NCBI GenBank assembly: GCA_913042105.1
Contig: CAJWIK010000005.1
Coordinates: forward strand, 1-32,688
Origin: an uncultured Gammaproteobacteria bacterium
Lineage (GTDB): Bacteria; Pseudomonadota; Gammaproteobacteria; Magnimaribacterales; Magnimaribacteraceae
Direction of reading: 5' to 3'
Length of the DNA stretch: 32,688 bases
Shown here: in pieces, positions 7,038 to 19,507 of the stretch
How positions within the stretch are numbered: position 1 is the stretch's first letter
Layout: each line of letters begins with the position of its first letter
Program-made: the position numbers and the translations under genes
The notes under the pieces: model-generated
The model's database searches: none
What the model was told of the DNA's origin: nothing
The model's input: only the letters and a program-made list of their open reading frames with translations

Positions 7038-7904
7038 ATGATGCAATACGAGAAAAAGTTTATAGAAGTTAAAAATAAATCTATGGGCTGTATTGATGTC
7101 GGCGAAGGAGAAGTATTTTTATTTCTGCATGGTAACCCTACTTCTTCTTTTTTATGGAGAAATATAGCTCCGCATGTTGAAGATTTGGGTCGAATTGTTA
7201 TCCCAGATCTTATTGGTATGGGAGACTCTGAAAAATTAGATGGGGTTGATAATGAGGATTATAAATATCACGGACAATATGGATATTTAACTAGCTTGAT
7301 AGATAAATTAGACCTCGGAAACAATATTCATTTGATTATTCATGATTGGGGTTCTGCAATGGGCTTTCAATTCGCGAGAGAAAATCCAGAGAGAATTAAG
7401 TCAATCACCTACATGGAAGCTATTGTTATGCCTTTAACTTGGGAACAATGGCCAGATCCTGCCACAAAAATATTTGGATTATTTAGATCTGAAGCTGGCG
7501 AAGAATTAGTCCTTCAGAAAAACTTTTTTGTGGAGAGAATACTGTTAGCAGATTCTTCAACTGGCTACACAGAAGAAGAGAAGACTGAATATATAAGACC
7601 TTTTAAGAATGAAGGAGAAGATAGACGCCCTACCCTTACTTGGCCTAGACAAATACCTCTCGATGGCGAGCCTAGTGAAGTAGTTGAAGAGATAGCTAAG
7701 AATGCTGAGTTTCATAAACATTCAGATATCCCTAAGTTATTCATAAACGCCGACCCTGGTTCAATCTTAATTGGAGATCAAAGAGAATTCGCAAGATCAT
7801 GGCCCAATCAAACAGAGGTCACGGTAAAAGGAAATCATTTCATTCAAGAAGACTCTTCTGAAGAAATAGGAATTGCACTGAGATCTTTCGTAGAAAGCCT
7901 CTAA
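7038..7904 (+). CDS. haloalkane dehalogenase-like alpha/beta hydrolase (HLD-II type)
   Basis: HGNPTSSFLWRN, IHDWGSAMGFQFA, YMEAIVMPLTWEQWP, GNHFIQEDSSEEIG: positions expected for the HLD-II catalytic pentad (Asn, Asp, Trp, Glu, His). Confidence 0.85.
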   Translation: MMQYEKKFIEVKNKSMGCIDVGEGEVFLFLHGNPTSSFLWRNIAPHVEDLGRIVIPDLIGMGDSEKLDGVDNEDYKYHGQYGYLTSLIDKLDLGNNIHLIIHDWGSAMGFQFARENPERIKSITYMEAIVMPLTWEQWPDPATKIFGLFRSEAGEELVLQKNFFVERILLADSSTGYTEEEKTEYIRPFKNEGEDRRPTLTWPRQIPLDGEPSEVVEEIAKNAEFHKHSDIPKLFINADPGSILIGDQREFARSWPNQTEVTVKGNHFIQEDSSEEIGIALRSFVESL

Positions 7905-8782
7905 ATTCTTTTTAGATAAGACTGTAGATCTTCAACTATTGAATCGGAAAATTCCATAGGCAAGAAATGTGAAGCTTTTTCGTAATACTTTGAGTGCCAG
8001 TTATGGCCTAAACGGAATAACACTCTTCTGGCTTGAGCTGAAAAAGTTGATCCAAATTTACCGTATACAACCATCACATCTATCTTAATCTTTTTTAGAT
8101 AACGCCAAGTATCCATTGAAGATGACCTGAATGTAGCTGCTTCCCATTCAGGTGAGCAGGAAAGTTCCACTCCAGATGATGTTTCTAATGTACCTCCTTC
8201 CAGATAATCTTCGATCCACTCCTTATCCCAAGTTGTAAATGCACCTCTTCCTGTATAAGAAGCCAAAGCATCTTCTATTGCAGGGAATTCTCTTCTGCGC
8301 TTAGCAGCACCATCAGCGATACTCAAACCTCGATTGTATTTTATAAATGACATAAATCTAAATTTTAAAGATTCAAATGGACCATAAAGAACTGGTTCTA
8401 TCATATAAAGATGGGATACCTTATCGGGATGTAACGAAGCTATTTTTGCAGCAATTATTGATCCCATTGAATGTCCTGAACATACAACTGATCCCTCAAT
8501 GGAATTGAGAAATTCATTTCCATCATCAACAAAAGTCTGCCAAGAATTTAATTCATTAGGATTAGCTTGTGCTGTAGATAAACCATGCCCACGTTGATCT
8601 AACGCATAGATACTTATTTCATTTCCGAAATGTTGCTTTAACTTCTCGAATAGAATTTGATAAGTTTTAGCATTAAAGCCTGTGGCATGAAAAAAAACTA
8701 AATTTATATTGCTGTTCTCAGATTTTTTTTCTAAAAAAGAGAAATTTTCTCCCGAGGAATTTGTAAAAGTTTTTCTTTCCAT
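7901..8782 (-). CDS. alpha/beta hydrolase
   Basis: FFHATGF, DQRGHG, CSGHSMGSIIA nucleophile elbow. Confidence 0.88.
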   Translation of the reverse strand: MERKTFTNSSGENFSFLEKKSENSNINLVFFHATGFNAKTYQILFEKLKQHFGNEISIYALDQRGHGLSTAQANPNELNSWQTFVDDGNEFLNSIEGSVVCSGHSMGSIIAAKIASLHPDKVSHLYMIEPVLYGPFESLKFRFMSFIKYNRGLSIADGAAKRRREFPAIEDALASYTGRGAFTTWDKEWIEDYLEGGTLETSSGVELSCSPEWEAATFRSSSMDTWRYLKKIKIDVMVVYGKFGSTFSAQARRVLFRLGHNWHSKYYEKASHFLPMEFSDSIVEDLQSYLKRI

Positions 8783-8844
8783 AGATTCTAATTTTATTGT
8801 GATGCCATATTAGAGATTTTTAAAAAAAATGATAATTATTATAA

Positions 8845-8857
8845 TGACATAATGTCA
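8845..8857. promoter_or_regulatory. candidate TetR-type operator TGACATAATGTCA upstream of the FAH operon
   Basis: Perfect 6+1+6 palindrome; the reverse complement is identical to the site at 15015-15027 beside the TetR gene. Confidence 0.6.
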
Positions 8858-8901
8858 CTATTTTGTAATGATACTATTATATAAAACAATTGGAGAGTTA
8901 T

Positions 8902-9807
8902 ATGTCGTTTAAATTAGGATCTATAAATAATCGAGCGGTACTATTATCAGAAGATGAGTATTTTGATTTAGAGACCATTTCTAAACATAAATTAAGTAAC
9001 AAAACTTCAGATGCTTTATTAAATATCGATCTACTTAATCACTTAAATGAGAACCTAAATGACCTAGAAGCTACTGGAAATCTTGAAGGAGTAGTATTCG
9101 ATTCTCCTGTATCTGAGCCAAAAAATTGTTATGCAGTTGGTCTGAATTACAGAAATCATGCTGAAGAGGCTGGTATGCAGATTCCCGAAGTCCCGATGAT
9201 TTTCACTAAGCATACGTCATGTCTAGTAGGCGCTAATACAGACATTGAAATGAGAAGTAATTATGTAGACTACGAAGCAGAATTAGTAGTTGTTATAGGT
9301 AAAAAAGGAAAAGATATATCTAAACAAGATGCATGGAATTACGTAGTAGGTGTGTGTGTCGGTCAAGATATCTCGGATAGGCCAACTCAATTTGCAGCAA
9401 CTCCAGCTCAGTTTAATCTAGGCAAATCATTTGATACCTTTGGGCCAATAGGTCCGTATTTGGTTTCTCCCGAGATGGTAAATGCTAAAGATGGTTTATC
9501 AATTGAGTGTCGCGTAAACGACGAAGTAAGACAAAGTGATAATACGAATGATTTAATCTTCAATGTCCAAGATATCATTGCTTATTTATCAGAAATAGTA
9601 ACTTTGAATGTAGGTGATATTATTTTTACTGGCACACCTGGTGGCGTTGGAGTGATGGAAGGAAAATTTCTAAAAGATGGTGATATCTTAAGTACCACTA
9701 TTGAAGGCCTCGGAACTATGACTAATAAATGTGTAAGAGTTAAAGATCATTCTAGGGCAGATTTCATTCCTGAAATGTTTAAACCTTTATTTGATAAAAA
9801 AGACTAG
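8902..9807 (+). CDS. fumarylacetoacetate hydrolase (FAH) family protein
   Basis: NCYAVGLNYRNHAEE, FTKHTSCLVG, DYEAELVVVIGK, TGTPGGVGVM. Start set to ATG 8902 (GGAGAG SD at 8892) rather than the ORF-track TTG at 8890. Confidence 0.92.
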   Translation: MSFKLGSINNRAVLLSEDEYFDLETISKHKLSNKTSDALLNIDLLNHLNENLNDLEATGNLEGVVFDSPVSEPKNCYAVGLNYRNHAEEAGMQIPEVPMIFTKHTSCLVGANTDIEMRSNYVDYEAELVVVIGKKGKDISKQDAWNYVVGVCVGQDISDRPTQFAATPAQFNLGKSFDTFGPIGPYLVSPEMVNAKDGLSIECRVNDEVRQSDNTNDLIFNVQDIIAYLSEIVTLNVGDIIFTGTPGGVGVMEGKFLKDGDILSTTIEGLGTMTNKCVRVKDHSRADFIPEMFKPLFDKKD

Positions 9808-9809
9808 AG

Positions 9810-10610
9810 ATGACTAATTTAACCCTTTACCACAATGGTCCATCTACCTGTTCGCAAAAAGTTAGATTAATTCTTGAACTAAAGAAATTAGACTATGAAT
9901 CAAAATCTATAGATCTAATGTCAGGAGAACAACATGACCCTGAATACGTTAAATTAAATCCTAATCATGTGGTTCCTACTGTAGTTGTTAACGATATGGC
10001 ATTAATTGAATCGTCTTTAATCAATGAATATCTTGAAGATACTTTTCCAGAAATAAAAGCTAGACCTAGAGATCCTTCATCTATACATAAAATGCGATTG
10101 TGGATTAAATATATTGATTCTTATCATCCCCAATGTGGATCTATTACTTATGGTATTGGTGTAAGAAATATAATTTTACAGAAAACAAAAGAAGAAATTG
10201 ATCAGGATGTTGCAAATATTCCTGATGTGGTTAAAAGAAAAAATAGAATTGATCTCTTGGAAAAAGGTCTTCAGGCACCTATTGTCATTGAAGGTATTAA
10301 ACAATCTAAAATTTTCTTAGATAAATTAGAAAATGAACTTGGAGAGAGTGAGTGGTTATACGGAGACAGTTTTGGCTTAGCAGATGCTGCCACAATCCCT
10401 TACATTATCCGAATGGATCAATTAGCTTTATCTTCTTTATTCAATGAAAGCACAAGGTCTAATATTTATTCTTGGTATAACAAAATACAAAAAATGGATA
10501 TTTTTCAAAAAGCAGTAACTGAATACATACCACAACCTTTAGTGGCAGTTCTAAATAAGTTTGGTGAAGATCAAAAAGATCAAGTTATAACAATTATGGA
10601 GAATGATTAA
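9810..10610 (+). CDS. glutathione S-transferase family protein, LigF/beta-etherase-like
   Basis: N-terminal thioredoxin-like GST domain (CSQKVRLILELK, NPNHVVPTVV, ESSLINEYLE) and a C-terminal region (RPRDPSSIHKMRLWIKYIDSYHPQCGSITYGIGVRNI) resembling LigF-type enzymes as recalled. Confidence 0.85.
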   Translation: MTNLTLYHNGPSTCSQKVRLILELKKLDYESKSIDLMSGEQHDPEYVKLNPNHVVPTVVVNDMALIESSLINEYLEDTFPEIKARPRDPSSIHKMRLWIKYIDSYHPQCGSITYGIGVRNIILQKTKEEIDQDVANIPDVVKRKNRIDLLEKGLQAPIVIEGIKQSKIFLDKLENELGESEWLYGDSFGLADAATIPYIIRMDQLALSSLFNESTRSNIYSWYNKIQKMDIFQKAVTEYIPQPLVAVLNKFGEDQKDQVITIMEND

Positions 10611-11620
10611 TGGCAATTATAAAAGCAACGAATGTGGCCTACCCGACCCTTCAATGTCCCGATTTAGACATACAAGAACAATTTCTGATACATTTTGGCA
10701 TGCATACTGTTTCTAAGACTGATGATACTTTGATCATGCGAGGGGATGGGCCTCAACAGTTCATAGAAATATGTAAAAAAGGTGAAAAGAAATTCATCTC
10801 TACGACATTTAATGCTGGATCAATGGGTGACCTTGAAAGACTCAGTCAAACAAATTCATTTAGCAGTATCGAAGAATTAACTACTCCTGGAGGTGGATAT
10901 GTTACTAAAGCTCAAGATCCTGATGGAATTGGAGTTGAAGTAGTTTTTGGTATTAAAGATAGAGAGATTGATAAATTACCTGAGCCCTTCCCTACCAATG
11001 AAGGTGGACAGATAAATAGAGTCAACCAATTAAAAAGATTTAATAAAGGCGATACACCAAGGATTATTAGATTTGGCCATTATGGAATCAACTCTCTTGA
11101 TATTGAAAAATCTTTGGAGTGGTATAACGAGCATTTAGGAATTATAGCTACTGATATTTTACAACCGCCCTCTCCTCCTGGAGAAGCGCCACTGACTGCA
11201 GGTATCTTTGCTAGATTAGATAAAGGATCTACTCCAACAGATCATCATTCAATTTTTTGGCTTAATGCTCATTTAGTGTCTGAAAGTATTCCGGGTTTAA
11301 ATCATGTCTCTTTTGAGATGTTAAATATCGATGATGTTTTTATGGGTCATGAGCTATTGAAAAGAAAAGCGAAAGAATACGACTATGAGTTAGAATGGGG
11401 TGTGGGTCGTCATTATCAAGGTAGCCAAATTTTTGATTATTGGAGAAGTCCTTTTAAACAAGTACACGAACATCAAACTGATGGAGATTACTTAGATAAT
11501 ACTATCCCACCACAAATAGTTAATCCCATGTCTGACGGAGATCCTGACTATCCTGAGTTTGGTCCTTCTCAATGGGGTGCTGCTATATCAGAAACATTTG
11601 GAAATAAAGAAGGTACATAA
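10610..11620 (+). CDS. two-domain VOC / extradiol ring-cleavage dioxygenase-like protein
   Basis: Candidate metal ligands in GHYGIN, LNHVSFE and QVHEHQTDGDYLD; two VOC modules. Confidence 0.8.
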   Translation: MAIIKATNVAYPTLQCPDLDIQEQFLIHFGMHTVSKTDDTLIMRGDGPQQFIEICKKGEKKFISTTFNAGSMGDLERLSQTNSFSSIEELTTPGGGYVTKAQDPDGIGVEVVFGIKDREIDKLPEPFPTNEGGQINRVNQLKRFNKGDTPRIIRFGHYGINSLDIEKSLEWYNEHLGIIATDILQPPSPPGEAPLTAGIFARLDKGSTPTDHHSIFWLNAHLVSESIPGLNHVSFEMLNIDDVFMGHELLKRKAKEYDYELEWGVGRHYQGSQIFDYWRSPFKQVHEHQTDGDYLDNTIPPQIVNPMSDGDPDYPEFGPSQWGAAISETFGNKEGT

Positions 11621-11622
11621 AA

Positions 11623-12393
11623 ATGAATATAAGCGAAAAACCTGTAGCAATAGTCACCGGAGGAAGTAGAGGAGTAGGAGCAGCCACAGCTAAACTTTTG
11701 GCCTCCAAGGGCTGGAATGTAACCATTACCTGTACTAGTTCGATTGAAGATGCAAATGTTGTAGTTCAAGAATGTGAGGGTTTAGGTGTAGAAGCACTAG
11801 CGATATCAGCTGATGTTGGAGATAACGAAGCCTGTGTAAAGACTGCAAATGAAACAATTGCTAAGTGGGGAAGAATCGATGCACTTGTAAACAATGCCGG
11901 TACGACTAAATTTGTTTTTAATCATGGTGATTTAGATGGGCTTGATGCTGAAGATTTTTTACATATATATAAAATAAATGTTGTTGGACCTTTTCAGATG
12001 GTGAGAGCTTGCAGGGCATCATTAGAGAAGAGCAATAATCCTAGTGTTGTGAATATATCGTCTATAGCAGGAATAAAGGGTATCGGAAGCAGCTTAGCTT
12101 ATGGCTGTTCTAAAGGAGCATTGAATACCATGACTATGTCTATGGCTAGAAATTTAGGGCCGATTAGAGTTAATGCCATATGTCCTGGTTTTATACAGGG
12201 TGAGTGGTTGAAGAACGGAATGGGTGATGATCTTTATAATGCAGCCCTCAAAAACTTAACTCAAAATACTCCTTTGAATCTTACCGTTACTCCCGATCAA
12301 GTTGCTGAAGGCATATATAGTTTTATTGGAATAAATAAAGTAGTAACCGGTGAAACAATGCTCATGGATGGTGGTCATCACCTAATCATATAA
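11623..12393 (+). CDS. SDR family oxidoreductase
   Basis: TGGSRGVG, NNAG, YGCSK, MDGGHH. Confidence 0.92.
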   Translation: MNISEKPVAIVTGGSRGVGAATAKLLASKGWNVTITCTSSIEDANVVVQECEGLGVEALAISADVGDNEACVKTANETIAKWGRIDALVNNAGTTKFVFNHGDLDGLDAEDFLHIYKINVVGPFQMVRACRASLEKSNNPSVVNISSIAGIKGIGSSLAYGCSKGALNTMTMSMARNLGPIRVNAICPGFIQGEWLKNGMGDDLYNAALKNLTQNTPLNLTVTPDQVAEGIYSFIGINKVVTGETMLMDGGHHLII

Positions 12394-12547: not shown

Positions 12548-14944
12548 TTAGAAGTTAGCTCTGAAGCTTACTCCAATTTCTTTTCCCGGCTCCCACATCA
12601 TGAAGTGTGATCCTGTTACTAACGGCAAATCAATACTTTGAGTACCCACTTGTTCATCAGTGATATTCCTGCCAAACAAGGCAAGTTCTAGACCATTGGC
12701 CATGGTAAGTGCAATTCTAGCTCCTATTTTTGTTGCAGAGTCATGCAATCCAAGAGGATCATTGTCACCATTAGAATAAAATTCATCTACATGGTTAGCA
12801 TTTATTGAAATAACCATTTGCCTGTTATTACTAAATGTTTGGAAATAGTCCATATACATAGAGGCTGATAATTCAGGTGCATAGTTTCCTGTTTGACCAG
12901 ATAAATCTTGAGAGCAGGCTCTGCTTCCTGTTGCAAGTCTATTGTCGACTTCTTGATCGGCTGTACATGCTGCTCCAACAAAAGATTTATAAGCAAAATC
13001 CAATGAAGTTATTGACCCACCTAAGACTAAATTATCTGTTGGTGCCCAAGTCAAATCTATTTCAATCCCATCTATTTCAGCTTGTGCTGCATTTGAAACT
13101 ACAAATGCTGAGCCATTGAATGCTGATACTTGTAGATCTTCATAGTCTGTTGTGAAGTATGCAATATTAGCTCTCAAAGACTTTTCAGGTATTTCTATCT
13201 TTGCTCCCACTTCGATTGTTGTAGCTTCTTCAGGATCAAATTGAAATGCGGCTGCAGGTGTAGATGGATTAATTTTTGCAGCATTCTCCGAACCATCAAA
13301 TCCTCCTGCCTTGTATCCGTCAGCTGCACTAAAATACAATCTGGTTGTATCGGTAGCTTCGTATAAAAATTTTATAGATGGTGTTGTATGGCTTTCTGAT
13401 CTTTCTTGTAGAGGAAAGTTGTAAGGAGATCTGTCTAATAATACTTTTATTACACCTAAGACTGGTGGAGCCATTGTAGGCTTATCAATACCAACTCCTC
13501 CTGTAGCAGAAGAACTAAATACTTGTGATCCTTTTACTTCCTTTTCATCCTCAGAGACTCGAACACCTGCTTTCATGGTTAATTTTTCATTCAAATACCA
13601 TGTGCCTTCAGCAAATGCAGATAAAGTTGTTGAGTTTTGGTCAAATAAGGTATGAGTTGCAGCTGTCTTTGCAGAAAATGCGCCTCTGGTTTGAAAGGCA
13701 AACAAATCTGGTGCTGGGAAAGTTTGACCAAATAATCCTCCGAAGTCTGTAGCAAAAGTACCATTATTCTGAGAAAAGTAATCAATATCATCGTAATAGA
13801 GCCCTGCAACATATTCAAATGTGTCGCTTGATGGTGAAGTTATTACAAATTCTTGAGTGACTGCAGAGAAATCATGAAAACTATCTGTTGAAAGAAAATC
13901 CATTGGTCCAAAATCAGCATCAAGACCCCAAGTATAGTCATAAGAAGAATATGAAGTGGTAGATTTAAACTCATGGTCCCCCCAAGAGGACGTAATATTT
14001 AAAATAGCATTATCAGTGTCTGTTGATCCTCCTGTGGGATTGACACCTTGGCCATTATTAACATAAGAAACACCTGGTTTTCCAGTCACTATATTTGGGA
14101 AATGTTTATTAGTGATACTAACTGCTAAAAATGCTCCTGTGTAACCATTCTGTGCCAGCACTGGCAGAGGTCTTGAAGTACGATAAACAGATATTCCACT
14201 TTCTTGTCCGCTCTTATCACTGGAAGACGATGTTAATTTTAAATTAACTTCTGTATTGTCTAGTTCCCAAAGGAATGTTGCTCTGACCGAAGTGGCTTCT
14301 GTTGAAGGTTCATCTGTATTTAAAAGTTGGTTTTCGATCCATCCATCTGATTCTTCGTAAGATGCAGCTAGTCTCATTGCAAACGAATCACTCATTGAAA
14401 TATTAGTTGCGCCTTGAAATTTTGTTGTATTCCATTCAGGTACGAATTCAACAGACATATTACTATCAGCCTCACCGCCTATTTGAGGAGATTTGCTTAT
14501 AACATTTATAACTCCACCAATTGTGTTTTTGCCAAAAAGTACTCCTTGAGTGCCTTTCAGCACTTCAATTCTCTCAATGTCCAATAGAGGTGCAAGGTAT
14601 TGCTGACCTTTCGATATAGGCATTCCATCAATAAATTGAGTTACAGACTGGGAAAAGCCTTTATTAGCTCCAGATCCCACGCCTCTCATATATATATTCC
14701 ATTCACCTGCTCCCTTAGTTACATGTAAACCTGGTACATGATTAGCAAGACTCTCAAACGAAGTTATACCTAGATCTGATATTCTATCTCCTGAAAGTAC
14801 CTGGATAGAAATAGGAACTTCAGCCAAACCTTCAGCTTTCTTTTGAGCAGTTACCACTATCTCATCTAGCCTAGAATCGCCATTTACATTAAATGATAAG
14901 GCAATTAGAAAAGATAAAAATGTAAAAAATTTTATTGAATTCAT
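12548..14944 (-). CDS. TonB-dependent receptor
   Basis: TonB-box-like DEIVVTAQK, plug domain (MRGVGSGANKG, LKGTQGVLFGKNTIGGVINVISK), beta-barrel ending in aromatic F (SFRANF). Confidence 0.95.
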   Translation of the reverse strand: MNSIKFFTFLSFLIALSFNVNGDSRLDEIVVTAQKKAEGLAEVPISIQVLSGDRISDLGITSFESLANHVPGLHVTKGAGEWNIYMRGVGSGANKGFSQSVTQFIDGMPISKGQQYLAPLLDIERIEVLKGTQGVLFGKNTIGGVINVISKSPQIGGEADSNMSVEFVPEWNTTKFQGATNISMSDSFAMRLAASYEESDGWIENQLLNTDEPSTEATSVRATFLWELDNTEVNLKLTSSSSDKSGQESGISVYRTSRPLPVLAQNGYTGAFLAVSITNKHFPNIVTGKPGVSYVNNGQGVNPTGGSTDTDNAILNITSSWGDHEFKSTTSYSSYDYTWGLDADFGPMDFLSTDSFHDFSAVTQEFVITSPSSDTFEYVAGLYYDDIDYFSQNNGTFATDFGGLFGQTFPAPDLFAFQTRGAFSAKTAATHTLFDQNSTTLSAFAEGTWYLNEKLTMKAGVRVSEDEKEVKGSQVFSSSATGGVGIDKPTMAPPVLGVIKVLLDRSPYNFPLQERSESHTTPSIKFLYEATDTTRLYFSAADGYKAGGFDGSENAAKINPSTPAAAFQFDPEEATTIEVGAKIEIPEKSLRANIAYFTTDYEDLQVSAFNGSAFVVSNAAQAEIDGIEIDLTWAPTDNLVLGGSITSLDFAYKSFVGAACTADQEVDNRLATGSRACSQDLSGQTGNYAPELSASMYMDYFQTFSNNRQMVISINANHVDEFYSNGDNDPLGLHDSATKIGARIALTMANGLELALFGRNITDEQVGTQSIDLPLVTGSHFMMWEPGKEIGVSFRANF

Positions 14945-14991: not shown

Positions 14992-15010
14992 TTTTTAATA
15001 GTATGTACGT

Positions 15011-15042
15011 GTGATGACATTATGTCAATGACATTTCGTCAC
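15011..15042. promoter_or_regulatory. double candidate TetR operator in TBDT/TetR divergent region
   Basis: GTGATGACATTATGTCAATGACATTTCGTCAC: perfect TGACATTATGTCA (15015-15027) and imperfect TGACATTTCGTCA (15029-15041), centres 14 bp apart, nested in an overall dyad. Confidence 0.7.
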
Positions 15043-15097
15043 TGCTTTTTTTATGATACAGTCTGATTTTTACACCATTTAAAAATCAAAAAAATTT

Positions 15098-15718: not shown

Positions 15719-16654
15719 ATGCCTTCAGGTCTTCAAAACAATCAAGTTGAAGAAACTTCAGATGAATGGGTTCTATATCATAATAATTTCTCCTTATGCT
15801 CTAGGAAAGTTCGGTTTTGCCTTGAAGAGTTAGGCTTGGATTATAGATCTGAGCAAATAGATTTAATTGAGACCGGGAAGTACGAAGTTGCTTCGAAAAA
15901 GTATTTGAAAATTAATCCAAACGCGACCGTACCAGTATTGCTGCATCAAGGAAGGCCAATATATGAATCTCATGAACAGATTTATTACTTACTAAAACAG
16001 TCACTTGATAAAAAAAATATTCTACCCTCTGAACCGAGTGAAAGTTTAGTTATGGATTATTGGATTGAAAAATCATCTCTAGTTGGTAATCCACTAGAAA
16101 ACCAAGATAAATATGCAGGTAATTGTTGTGGGCCTTTAACGTTTCCTTTATTTGTAACAATGATCAAATATGTGAACTTAAAAGAAATACTCAAAGGTCT
16201 TAAATCTCATCCCATGAAGGAAAGAGTAATAATTTTCTTAATTTTTAAAATATTGGGTTTAAAAGTTTTTAGCCGCCCTCTTCCATTTGCGAAATTATTA
16301 CAATCATCCTTTTTAAACTTAAACAAACATCTTTATGACTTAGAGAACCATCTGGAAGACCAAAAGACTCCTTGGATAGTTGGAACAGATCTCTCTTTAG
16401 CAGACATAAGTTGGGCGGCTATTCTTCACCGCCTCCATGAATGTGGATGGGAGAATATATTGTTATCTGATAAACCTAATATCAAGGAATATTATTCTAA
16501 TTTAATTATTAAAGATGCTTTTAAAAGAGCTTTCGATAGTCCTACACATCCTATTCTGCTTAAGGGAGTAGAAGATTTAAAACATGCTCTTAAGAATAAA
16601 TCCCCTATCACTAAGCTTCACAACAAAATAAGGAATAACTTACATGAATCATGA
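15719..16654 (+). CDS. glutathione S-transferase family protein
   Basis: LYHNNFSLCSRKVRFCLEELGLDY, NPNATVPVL, ESHEQIYYLL; C-terminal SLADISWAAILHRL. Confidence 0.87.
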   Translation: MPSGLQNNQVEETSDEWVLYHNNFSLCSRKVRFCLEELGLDYRSEQIDLIETGKYEVASKKYLKINPNATVPVLLHQGRPIYESHEQIYYLLKQSLDKKNILPSEPSESLVMDYWIEKSSLVGNPLENQDKYAGNCCGPLTFPLFVTMIKYVNLKEILKGLKSHPMKERVIIFLIFKILGLKVFSRPLPFAKLLQSSFLNLNKHLYDLENHLEDQKTPWIVGTDLSLADISWAAILHRLHECGWENILLSDKPNIKEYYSNLIIKDAFKRAFDSPTHPILLKGVEDLKHALKNKSPITKLHNKIRNNLHES

Positions 16655-18164
16655 TTACGATATAGGAATAGTGGGTCTAGGACCGGTTGGAAGTTTTGCT
16701 GCTTTATTGTTGGAAAAAAAAGGGCTAAAAGTACTAGCCATAGATAAAGATCAGGACATCTATTCCCTACCTAGAGCTGTCAGTATTAGCGACCAAGGAC
16801 TAAGAATGACCCAAGAGGTAAATATAGATGATATTTATATTGAGAATAGTACAGAGGTTGGCGGTGCTGGATTTGTAGACAAAGATCTCAACTTTATAGG
16901 CGATCCGATAGAATTAAAAGGTTTCACTACTCCAAATGGTTGGTCTCCAATGCGCTTCTTTCATCAACCTTATACCGATAAAAAAATAAGACAAAGGCTA
17001 GAACAATCTTCTATAACGATCTTGTTAGAGACTGAACTTGTAAGTGTTATTGATGAAATTGAAGGTGTGAAATTTAATACCAAGAACCTTGTAGACTCTA
17101 CTGAAAAACAATATTCCTGTAAGTATCTAATTGGTGCGGACGGAGGGTCAAGTGCTCTTAGAAAGTTATTAGAAATCACTCAGGAGGATCTTAATTATAA
17201 TCGTGATTGGGTGGTGGTTGACGTTGAATTAACTGGAAAAAATAGACTTGATGACAAGGCTATACAGATATGTGATAAAGAAAGAATTGGAACTTTTATA
17301 CCATCTCATCTGCCATTTCGTAGATGGGAGTTCATTATTTATGATGATGAAAATAAGAAAGATTTTCAGGATGATAAAAAAATTCAAGAACTGATTGGAA
17401 GGTGGTTAAATCCAAATGAATACAAGATAATTAGGAAAGCTATTTATCAATTTCATTCAGTATTGGCACATGATTTTAAAAAAGGAAATTGCTTCTTAAT
17501 TGGTGATGCGGCCCATCAAAACCCCCCATTTATGGGTGAAGGTATGATGTCTGGATATAGAGATGCTTTTAACCTTGCATGGAAAATTGCCTATGTAATT
17601 AAAAATAATTTTTCTTCAAACCTTTTAGATACTTATCAAGAAGAAAGGAGGCCTCATGCAAAATTTGTAGTTGAAAATTCTGCAGGTATTGGAGAATTGA
17701 TGGAAGCCTATGCAAATGCAGATGATCCAAAAGATGTGCCCTCAGAATTAGTTGCAAAAGGATACGGATCATTCATCTTACCTAACTTAGATGAAGGTTT
17801 ATTCTATGGAGGTAAGGCAGATGATTCTATGGCAGCTGGGCAATTTTTTCCTCAAATAGCATCATATAAAGATGGATTAATCGAAGAACACCAAGACTAT
17901 TTATTGGGAGATGGGTTTGCCTTTTTATCAAAACAGGAAATTGAGATAAGTGAGGAGCATAAAGAATTTTTAGATAAATTGAATTGTTGTTTCGTCACTC
18001 TAGAAAAGGATGTAATTGAATCCAATCCCTGGGTGGCTGGATTTTTAGAACTGGGTGATACTTTTATTATTAGACCTGATAAATATATTTATGGATGTAG
18101 CTCCAATAATGTATCTTTAGATGAGTTAATCGAAGATTTAAAAAGTAGAATGTCCTTAAACTAA
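16644..18164 (+). CDS. FAD-dependent aromatic hydroxylase, MhpA-like (3-(3-hydroxyphenyl)propionate hydroxylase family)
   Basis: GIVGLGPVGS Rossmann motif; LIGDAAHQNPPFMGEGMMSGYRDAFNLAWKIAYV GD motif characteristic of group A flavin monooxygenases. Confidence 0.9.
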   Translation: MNHDYDIGIVGLGPVGSFAALLLEKKGLKVLAIDKDQDIYSLPRAVSISDQGLRMTQEVNIDDIYIENSTEVGGAGFVDKDLNFIGDPIELKGFTTPNGWSPMRFFHQPYTDKKIRQRLEQSSITILLETELVSVIDEIEGVKFNTKNLVDSTEKQYSCKYLIGADGGSSALRKLLEITQEDLNYNRDWVVVDVELTGKNRLDDKAIQICDKERIGTFIPSHLPFRRWEFIIYDDENKKDFQDDKKIQELIGRWLNPNEYKIIRKAIYQFHSVLAHDFKKGNCFLIGDAAHQNPPFMGEGMMSGYRDAFNLAWKIAYVIKNNFSSNLLDTYQEERRPHAKFVVENSAGIGELMEAYANADDPKDVPSELVAKGYGSFILPNLDEGLFYGGKADDSMAAGQFFPQIASYKDGLIEEHQDYLLGDGFAFLSKQEIEISEEHKEFLDKLNCCFVTLEKDVIESNPWVAGFLELGDTFIIRPDKYIYGCSSNNVSLDELIEDLKSRMSLN

Positions 18165-18187: not shown

Positions 18188-18712
18188 ATGAAATTAGAAG
18201 TATCACATACCATCTTAAACATTAAAGACTCAAATATAATCATTGAGTTTTATTCAAAGGTTTTAGGCTTCAAAGTGAGCGATCAAGGGCTGATTGGCGG
18301 AGCGGGGCCAGAAATTATCTTTATGAGTCAAGATGAAAATGAGCATCATCAAATAGGATTTTCAGTTCAACGTGAAAATTTGGATCATTCCACTCAATTA
18401 AATCACATCTCTTTTAGAGTAAGGACATTCGATGAAGTTCAGGAAGTTAAGAATGCGTTAGAGGCAAAAGATTTCGAATATCTACCTTTATGTCATGGCA
18501 ATTCTTTGTCGCTTTATTTTAATGATCCTGAAGGAAATACATTAGAAGTATTTTTCGATACTCCCTGGCACGTGATTCAGCCTCAAACTGAAATATGGGA
18601 TACTAATATGACTGAAGATGAAGCTTTGAAATGGGTTGAACTAACCTTTAAAGATAAACCTGATTTTTCAAAAATAGAAGATAGTAAGAAAGAATTTGTT
18701 AATCGAACTTAA
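18188..18712 (+). CDS. VOC family protein, extradiol dioxygenase-like
   Basis: SHTILNIKD, LNHISFRV, DPEGNTLEVFFDTPWHV; H-H-E ligand pattern of single-module VOC enzymes. Confidence 0.88.
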   Translation: MKLEVSHTILNIKDSNIIIEFYSKVLGFKVSDQGLIGGAGPEIIFMSQDENEHHQIGFSVQRENLDHSTQLNHISFRVRTFDEVQEVKNALEAKDFEYLPLCHGNSLSLYFNDPEGNTLEVFFDTPWHVIQPQTEIWDTNMTEDEALKWVELTFKDKPDFSKIEDSKKEFVNRT

Positions 18713-18727
18713 ATATAGGACTACTTT

Positions 18728-19507
18728 ATGGACTTAGGTATCGAAAATAGAAAAGCAATTGTCTGTGCATCCTCAAAAGGATTAGGGAAAGCATGTGCTA
18801 AAAGCTTGTTAGAAGAAGGAGTATCCGTTGTTATCAATGCCCGAGGAGAAGAAGCACTTCAAGAAACGTTCAGAGAATTGTCATTAATTGATAAAGACAA
18901 AGTATCCATGGTTATAGCTGATTTGAATACCGATGAAGGAAGGAAAAAACTTATAGAAAGCTGCCCTGATGCTGATATTTTAATTAATAATAATAGCGGC
19001 CCTCCTCCTGTTAATTTCCTGGAGACGGATAAAGAGGACTGGATGAAAGCACTTGATGCGAATATGTTATCTGCTATTTTCATGATTAAAGATCTTCTGC
19101 CAGGAATGATTGAGAGAAATTTTGGAAGAATAATAAATATCACCTCAGCAATGGTTAAGTCTCCCCATCCTTTAATGTCTCTTTCTACTTCTGCAAGAAC
19201 AGGACTCACTGCCTTCTCAAAAGGAATATCCAAAGACGTGTCAAAGCATAATGTAACAATTAACAACATGCTGCCTGAAAGATTTGATACAGATAGACAA
19301 GTTTTTATGACTGAAATGATTATGGAAAATCAAAATATTTCTAGAGATGAGGCCAGATCACAGATAGCAAGTACCATCGCAGCAAATAGATTTGGTAGAC
19401 CTGAAGAATTTGGAGCTACATGTGCTTTTTTATGCAGTGAACATGCAGGGTTTATTTCTGGTCAAAATCTTCAAATGGATGGTGGTTCTTATGAAGGCTT
19501 AATCTAA
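18728..19507 (+). CDS. SDR family protein with atypical active site
   Basis: SSKGLGKA cofactor loop, NNNSGPPP, QMDGGSYEGLI; canonical YxxxK replaced by STSAR. Confidence 0.88.
   Translation: MDLGIENRKAIVCASSKGLGKACAKSLLEEGVSVVINARGEEALQETFRELSLIDKDKVSMVIADLNTDEGRKKLIESCPDADILINNNSGPPPVNFLETDKEDWMKALDANMLSAIFMIKDLLPGMIERNFGRIINITSAMVKSPHPLMSLSTSARTGLTAFSKGISKDVSKHNVTINNMLPERFDTDRQVFMTEMIMENQNISRDEARSQIASTIAANRFGRPEEFGATCAFLCSEHAGFISGQNLQMDGGSYEGLI

Follow-up and report, generated by a model that had tools for sequence, protein, structure and literature searches.

A 13-bp palindrome, TGACATWATGTCA, occurs exactly at two places in the genome of an uncultured marine SAR86 bacterium and most probably marks the operators of a TetR-family repressor. 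This repressor would govern its own operon, a divergent TonB-dependent outer-membrane receptor (TBDT), an operon 6 kb away that encodes an FAH-family hydrolase, a glutathione S-transferase (GST1), a two-domain VOC protein (VOC2) and a short-chain dehydrogenase (SDR1), and possibly a divergent alpha/beta hydrolase, and would be released by an inducer. SAR86 bacteria populate the surface ocean in very large numbers and are difficult to culture. An isolate-based study of 2024 makes the case that they degrade aromatic compounds; neither TetR nor regulation came up when its text was searched by word (PMC11582366). We analysed a window of 32,688 nucleotides from an assembly of 1,318,488 bp. The assembly lies in 147 contigs and is ~75% complete, and further targets of the regulon may therefore be missing from it.

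Palindromes and predicted promoters

The palindrome lies in front of the FAH gene and, as O1, between the divergent receptor and tetR genes, where an imperfect tandem copy, O2, is centred 14 bp from O1 (Table 1). The preliminary description had given the sequence and coordinates at 8844 correctly, and the palindrome there is exact. Its alignment of that site with 15028-15059 captured a real match at the second locus, but the copy so aligned is the imperfect O2, and the exact palindrome is O1. In the whole assembly there are two exact copies, both inside the window, compared with 0.07 to 0.04 expected from Markov models of order 1 to 3; the pair exceeds chance. No copy with one mismatch occurs anywhere in the assembly. 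Allowing up to two mismatches yields 32 places, comprising the three window sites, 28 intragenic sites and one non-coding site; that is, 28 of the 29 other two-mismatch sites fall within open reading frames. The genome-wide scan that had been suggested earlier did not produce random intragenic copies in large number, the outcome that would have counted against the proposed regulon. The non-coding site, on contig C104, was considered as a further target and set aside, being weak, poorly palindromic and near the contig end. A scan of the window also bore out that the palindrome is absent before the operon at 1490. A hairpin or terminator role was rejected, with terminator-like sites absent at both places. 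Viral contigs gave no match.

Table 1. Genes, predicted promoters and putative operators, in window positions unless a locus is named
Feature	Position	Strand	Remarks
Alpha/beta hydrolase (ABH)	7901-8782	-	Divergent; possible third target
Predicted promoter of divergent ABH	8829-8858	-	GTGACA-18 nt-TATCAT; 10/12 consensus match; -35 box inside 8845-8857 operator
Predicted FAH-operon promoter	8844-8872	+	ATGACA-17 nt-AATGAT, TG before AATGAT; 9/12; -35 box inside operator
Operator of FAH-GST1-VOC2-SDR1 operon	8845-8857	.	Exact palindrome TGACATAATGTCA; unchanged in two relatives; putative
FAH-family hydrolase	8902-9807	+	First gene, target operon 1; GGAGAG precedes ATG at 8902
GST1, glutathione S-transferase	9810-10610	+	Closest solved structure by sequence: LigF
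VOC2, two-domain VOC protein	10610-11620	+	Extradiol-dioxygenase-like
SDR1, short-chain dehydrogenase	11623-12393	+	Last gene, target operon 1
TBDT, outer-membrane receptor	12548-14944	-	Divergent from tetR
Predicted TBDT promoter	15000-15028	-	TTGACA (15028-15023)-17 nt-CATACT; 10/12; -35 box overlaps O1
Operator O1	15015-15027	.	Exact palindrome TGACATTATGTCA; kept in L060 and L062, with a single change at the centre in L061; putative
Predicted tetR-operon promoter	15028-15057	+	ATGACA-18 nt-TATGAT; 10/12; -35 box inside O2
Operator O2	15029-15041	.	Imperfect, TGACATTTCGTCA; conserved in three relatives; putative
TetR-family regulator, 206 aa	15098-15718	+	Proposed repressor
GST2, glutathione S-transferase	15719-16654	+	Start immediately past tetR stop
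FAD aromatic hydroxylase	16644-18164	+	MhpA-like
VOC1, single-domain VOC protein	18188-18712	+	Extradiol-dioxygenase-like
SDR2, short-chain dehydrogenase	18728-19507	+	Last gene, tetR operon
MatE/bacteriorhodopsin-family palindromes	L103:7602-7614, L105:8034-8046, L109:7110-7122		Pfam on L103 only

By sigma-70 consensus matching, promoter-like -35 boxes overlap all of the sites. At the FAH operon, the stretch ATGACATAATGTCACT begins at 8844 and is followed, after a 17-nt spacer, by AATGAT at 8867-8872; the proposal of such a promoter, with the operator over its -35 box, holds as a consensus match. An effect on the divergent hydrolase, raised at the same time, is plausible but weaker, the GTGACA/TATCAT match overlapping the palindrome. 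At the second locus, the -35 boxes predicted for the receptor and for tetR abut back to back (15023-15033) under O1 and O2. Shuffled sequences yield one to two such promoter matches per region, with no clear excess in the real ones, and consensus matches taken alone would lend weak support.

The regulator and its candidate targets

The regulator carries an N-terminal TetR_N helix-turn-helix domain (PF00440, E 1.4e-10, residues 8-54). Its predicted model consists of helices only, 11 being listed, in a two-domain fold (pLDDT 73, low at 118-146), and most of its Foldseek matches are named as TetR-family regulators. The nearest solved relatives by sequence are of the FadR type, namely Bacillus FadR (3whb) and the archaeal SaFadR (6el2/6en8), with E values of 1e-7 to 5e-6; the highest TM-scores among the matches listed (0.60-0.63) belong to the resorcinol regulator RolR (3aqt); the sequence likeness to these proteins lies chiefly in the DNA-binding domain. 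Because the model is only moderately confident, the ligand class cannot be read from it. As sequence, the palindrome stands in the promoter of tetR itself and in the divergent and neighbouring target promoters (O1, O2 and the 8845 site).

Among solved structures, GST1 matches LigF (4xt0) with an E value of 4e-21 over residues 3-198. LigF, its closest solved relative, is the beta-etherase (beta-aryl-etherase) of the sphingomonad beta-aryl-ether pathway; the relationship is distant and the likeness one of sequence only. Compared with the Lig pathway, GST1 is LigF-like and SDR genes are adjacent, while glutathione S-transferases in general are diverse. The same search with GST2 returned no Lig-named chain among the best 60 matches. 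In G066, a sulfatase belongs to the same gene run. From the gene names, our guess is that the pathway substrate is aromatic and perhaps ether-linked or sulfated.

Two side observations concern these genes. A long antisense open frame (18859-19269) runs within SDR2, is open too in L061 and L062, and is probably a side effect of the coding strand. The genome also has a second FAH homologue (L059; G000:C110:101-985), 57% identical to the first, and in the ~100 nt available upstream of it there is no site with fewer than four mismatches.

We propose that the TetR dimer would recognise TGACA-N3-TGTCA and that, without inducer, it would occupy the -35 boxes and keep RNA polymerase from three or four promoters, those of its own operon (O2), the divergent receptor (O1), the FAH operon (8845) and, as a possible fourth, the divergent hydrolase. 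TetR would leave the DNA on binding the pathway substrate, probably an aromatic compound and possibly one with an aryl-ether bond, or an early product of it, and the genes for uptake and for breakdown would be switched on jointly. Repression, direct binding and an aromatic inducer are what we infer here, with the ligand response and repression taken from the TetR family.

Conservation of regulator and proposed operator within SAR86

Three loci carry close copies of the regulator (100%, 95% and 83% identity in L060, L061 and L062, respectively), and all three keep O1 and O2; like all relatives here, they count as non-independent observations. The tandem operators of L061, TGACACTATGTCA and TGACATTCCGTCA, contain two base changes, both within the middle three bases. 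The FAH site is unchanged in L060 and L061, and L062 ends short of the FAH promoter. We note that the L062 contig (PADT01000073.1), a SAR86 locus filed under a Flavobacteriaceae MAG, is probably mis-binned. In the genus of the window, only TetR-bearing genomes have the exact site, and only at this locus.

Across 203 genomes of the SAR86 order, the regulator (threshold E<=1e-25) is found in nine, the exact palindrome in seven, and both in five (hypergeometric 9e-7, shared ancestry not removed). At the same threshold, a sample of 369 genomes of the class contained no such TetR outside SAR86. All nine TetR-bearing genomes have a TGACA-N3-TGTCA-type site at pathway promoters. This core is the informative part of the operator, the half-sites being near-constant across relatives and the middle three bases variable. 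Five of the nine TetRs belong to genus g16, of another SAR86 family; their overall identity to the window TetR is 31-35%, with 65-70% in helices 2-3 and 23-26% in the ligand domain. Each of these five genomes has sites of this type 34-36 nt ahead of GST1 and also at the promoter of the TBDT. That promoter is divergent from SDR2 in four genomes, SDR2 being absent from the stretch read in the fifth (G067). G024 carries the site CGACATTATGTCA at the promoter that separates FAH-VOC2-tetR from SDR1-GST2. For ten regions (nine from g16, one from G024), the observed match was reached by 0 to 4 of 1000 shuffles. The single region scored for G067, of 208 bp, was represented by its best match and also contains the listed TBDT site.

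Homologues at TetR-less loci serve as controls. The site precedes GST1 in 5/5 genomes with TetR (the g16 family) versus 0/12 without it (250 nt upstream, <=1 mismatch allowed; Fisher 1.6e-4, shared ancestry not removed), and no site within the same mismatch limit lies in the 200 nt directly upstream of FAH homologues that lack TetR. At about -225, the place of the divergent hydrolase if spaced as in G005, two of the TetR-less FAH loci do have a one-mismatch site, and because of these two a combined Fisher test of 9 TetR-bearing and 33 TetR-less loci was set aside. A further candidate, TGACATTTTGTCA, ~5 kb from the FAH gene of G005, was dropped, as it sits in a coding region; similar copies occur in G008, G009 and G015.

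In G049, FAH-VOC2-SDR1-GST2-FAD-VOC1-SDR2 form a single run in which SDR1 and GST2 are 12 bp apart, with neither receptor nor TetR gene in the gap; a decayed copy of the site, TCACTTAATGTCA, stands at the corresponding position between the operon halves. This single relic may point to loss of the cassette there and not to insertion in the window genome. The fused run of G005 is shorter than that of G049 and lacks the site. We put forward, as a possibility somewhat short of probable, that the regulator-operator pair, so far seen in SAR86 only, has been kept across families with its two-site layout over receptor and GST/dioxygenase pathway while the ligand domain and the receptor diverged, and that some relatives later lost the receptor-TetR cassette, which joined their operon halves and left a decayed operator behind.

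Similar palindromes of varying centre occur elsewhere in g16. In G065, G070 and G071, which have no TetR hit, TGACA-N3-TGTCA lies between MatE transporter and bacteriorhodopsin-family genes. In G064 and G071, the same type stands before a carboxylase-domain gene (L081:6161-6173 and L107:7333-7345; Pfam on L081) and before a large gene with an outer-membrane-receptor-like start (L082:5973-5985 and L108:7150-7162).

Alternative readings and known systems

Three other explanations bear on these data. A different DNA-binding protein acting at the palindrome, with tetR nearby only incidentally, would fit the g16 palindromes before unrelated genes (proteorhodopsin-like, carboxylase subunit, large receptor-like), part of which lie in genomes with no TetR hit; the motif may therefore be used more widely there, by the same or another regulator. 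We consider this very unlikely for the window, where the exact site in the genus is limited to TetR-bearing genomes and this locus, and TetR-less FAH and GST1 homologues have no promoter-proximal copy. The likeness of the promoters might instead reflect recent duplication of a single promoter region with no shared regulator, as the similarity extends past the operator to the -10 region. This is scarcely credible, in that distant TetR-bearing genomes, when checked, proved to have conserved palindromes at the same kinds of promoter, though the middle three bases and flanks differ, and a bare copy would not persist over such distance.

TetR could also act at the same sites as an activator or a mixed regulator, for instance repressing its own operon from O2 and activating the receptor from O1; two unequal tandem sites between divergent genes could serve different promoters. 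Each site, however, overlaps a predicted -35 box and does not lie upstream of it, the position of a blocking repressor, and TetR-family members studied so far are mostly repressors, which makes this alternative very unlikely. One regulator behind both gene groups is very likely, because the exact site occurs nowhere else in the assembly and relatives that keep TetR keep the site. The split regulon proposed in the preliminary description, linking the FAH operon, the receptor and the TetR operon, is backed by phylogenetic footprinting and by the way site and TetR occur together in SAR86 genomes. The two-operator layout is conserved as well.

CymR of Pseudomonas putida F1 is a TetR-family protein that offers a parallel in layout. 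It is one repressor of two separate aromatic-catabolism operons, with similar inverted repeats, one perfect and one imperfect, in both promoter regions, and cumate as ligand releases it (PMC1654148). The SAR86 regulon, known here from DNA letters, would likewise have one regulator and an exact palindrome at two catabolic operons and nowhere else in the assembly. The comparison is of layout and not of sequences, so that the regulon would work like that of CymR without being one; the pathway differs, and the consulted part of the CymR source mentions no TonB-dependent receptor (PMC1654148). PheR, a repressor of Sphingobium sp. SHPJ-2, couples uptake through the outer membrane (TonB system genes) to the catabolism of aromatic compounds (PMC13273656); the proposed regulon would share this coupling, but PheR is of the IclR family, not TetR, and has another operator. 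A literature search with the motif text gave as its sole match an unrelated microRNA paper.

In sum, the SAR86 case adds a new and well-supported example to a familiar class of local regulons. A mapped operator tells which genes serve one substrate, assigns to a TonB-dependent receptor its particular catabolic genes, and offers a ready biosensor route to the substrate.
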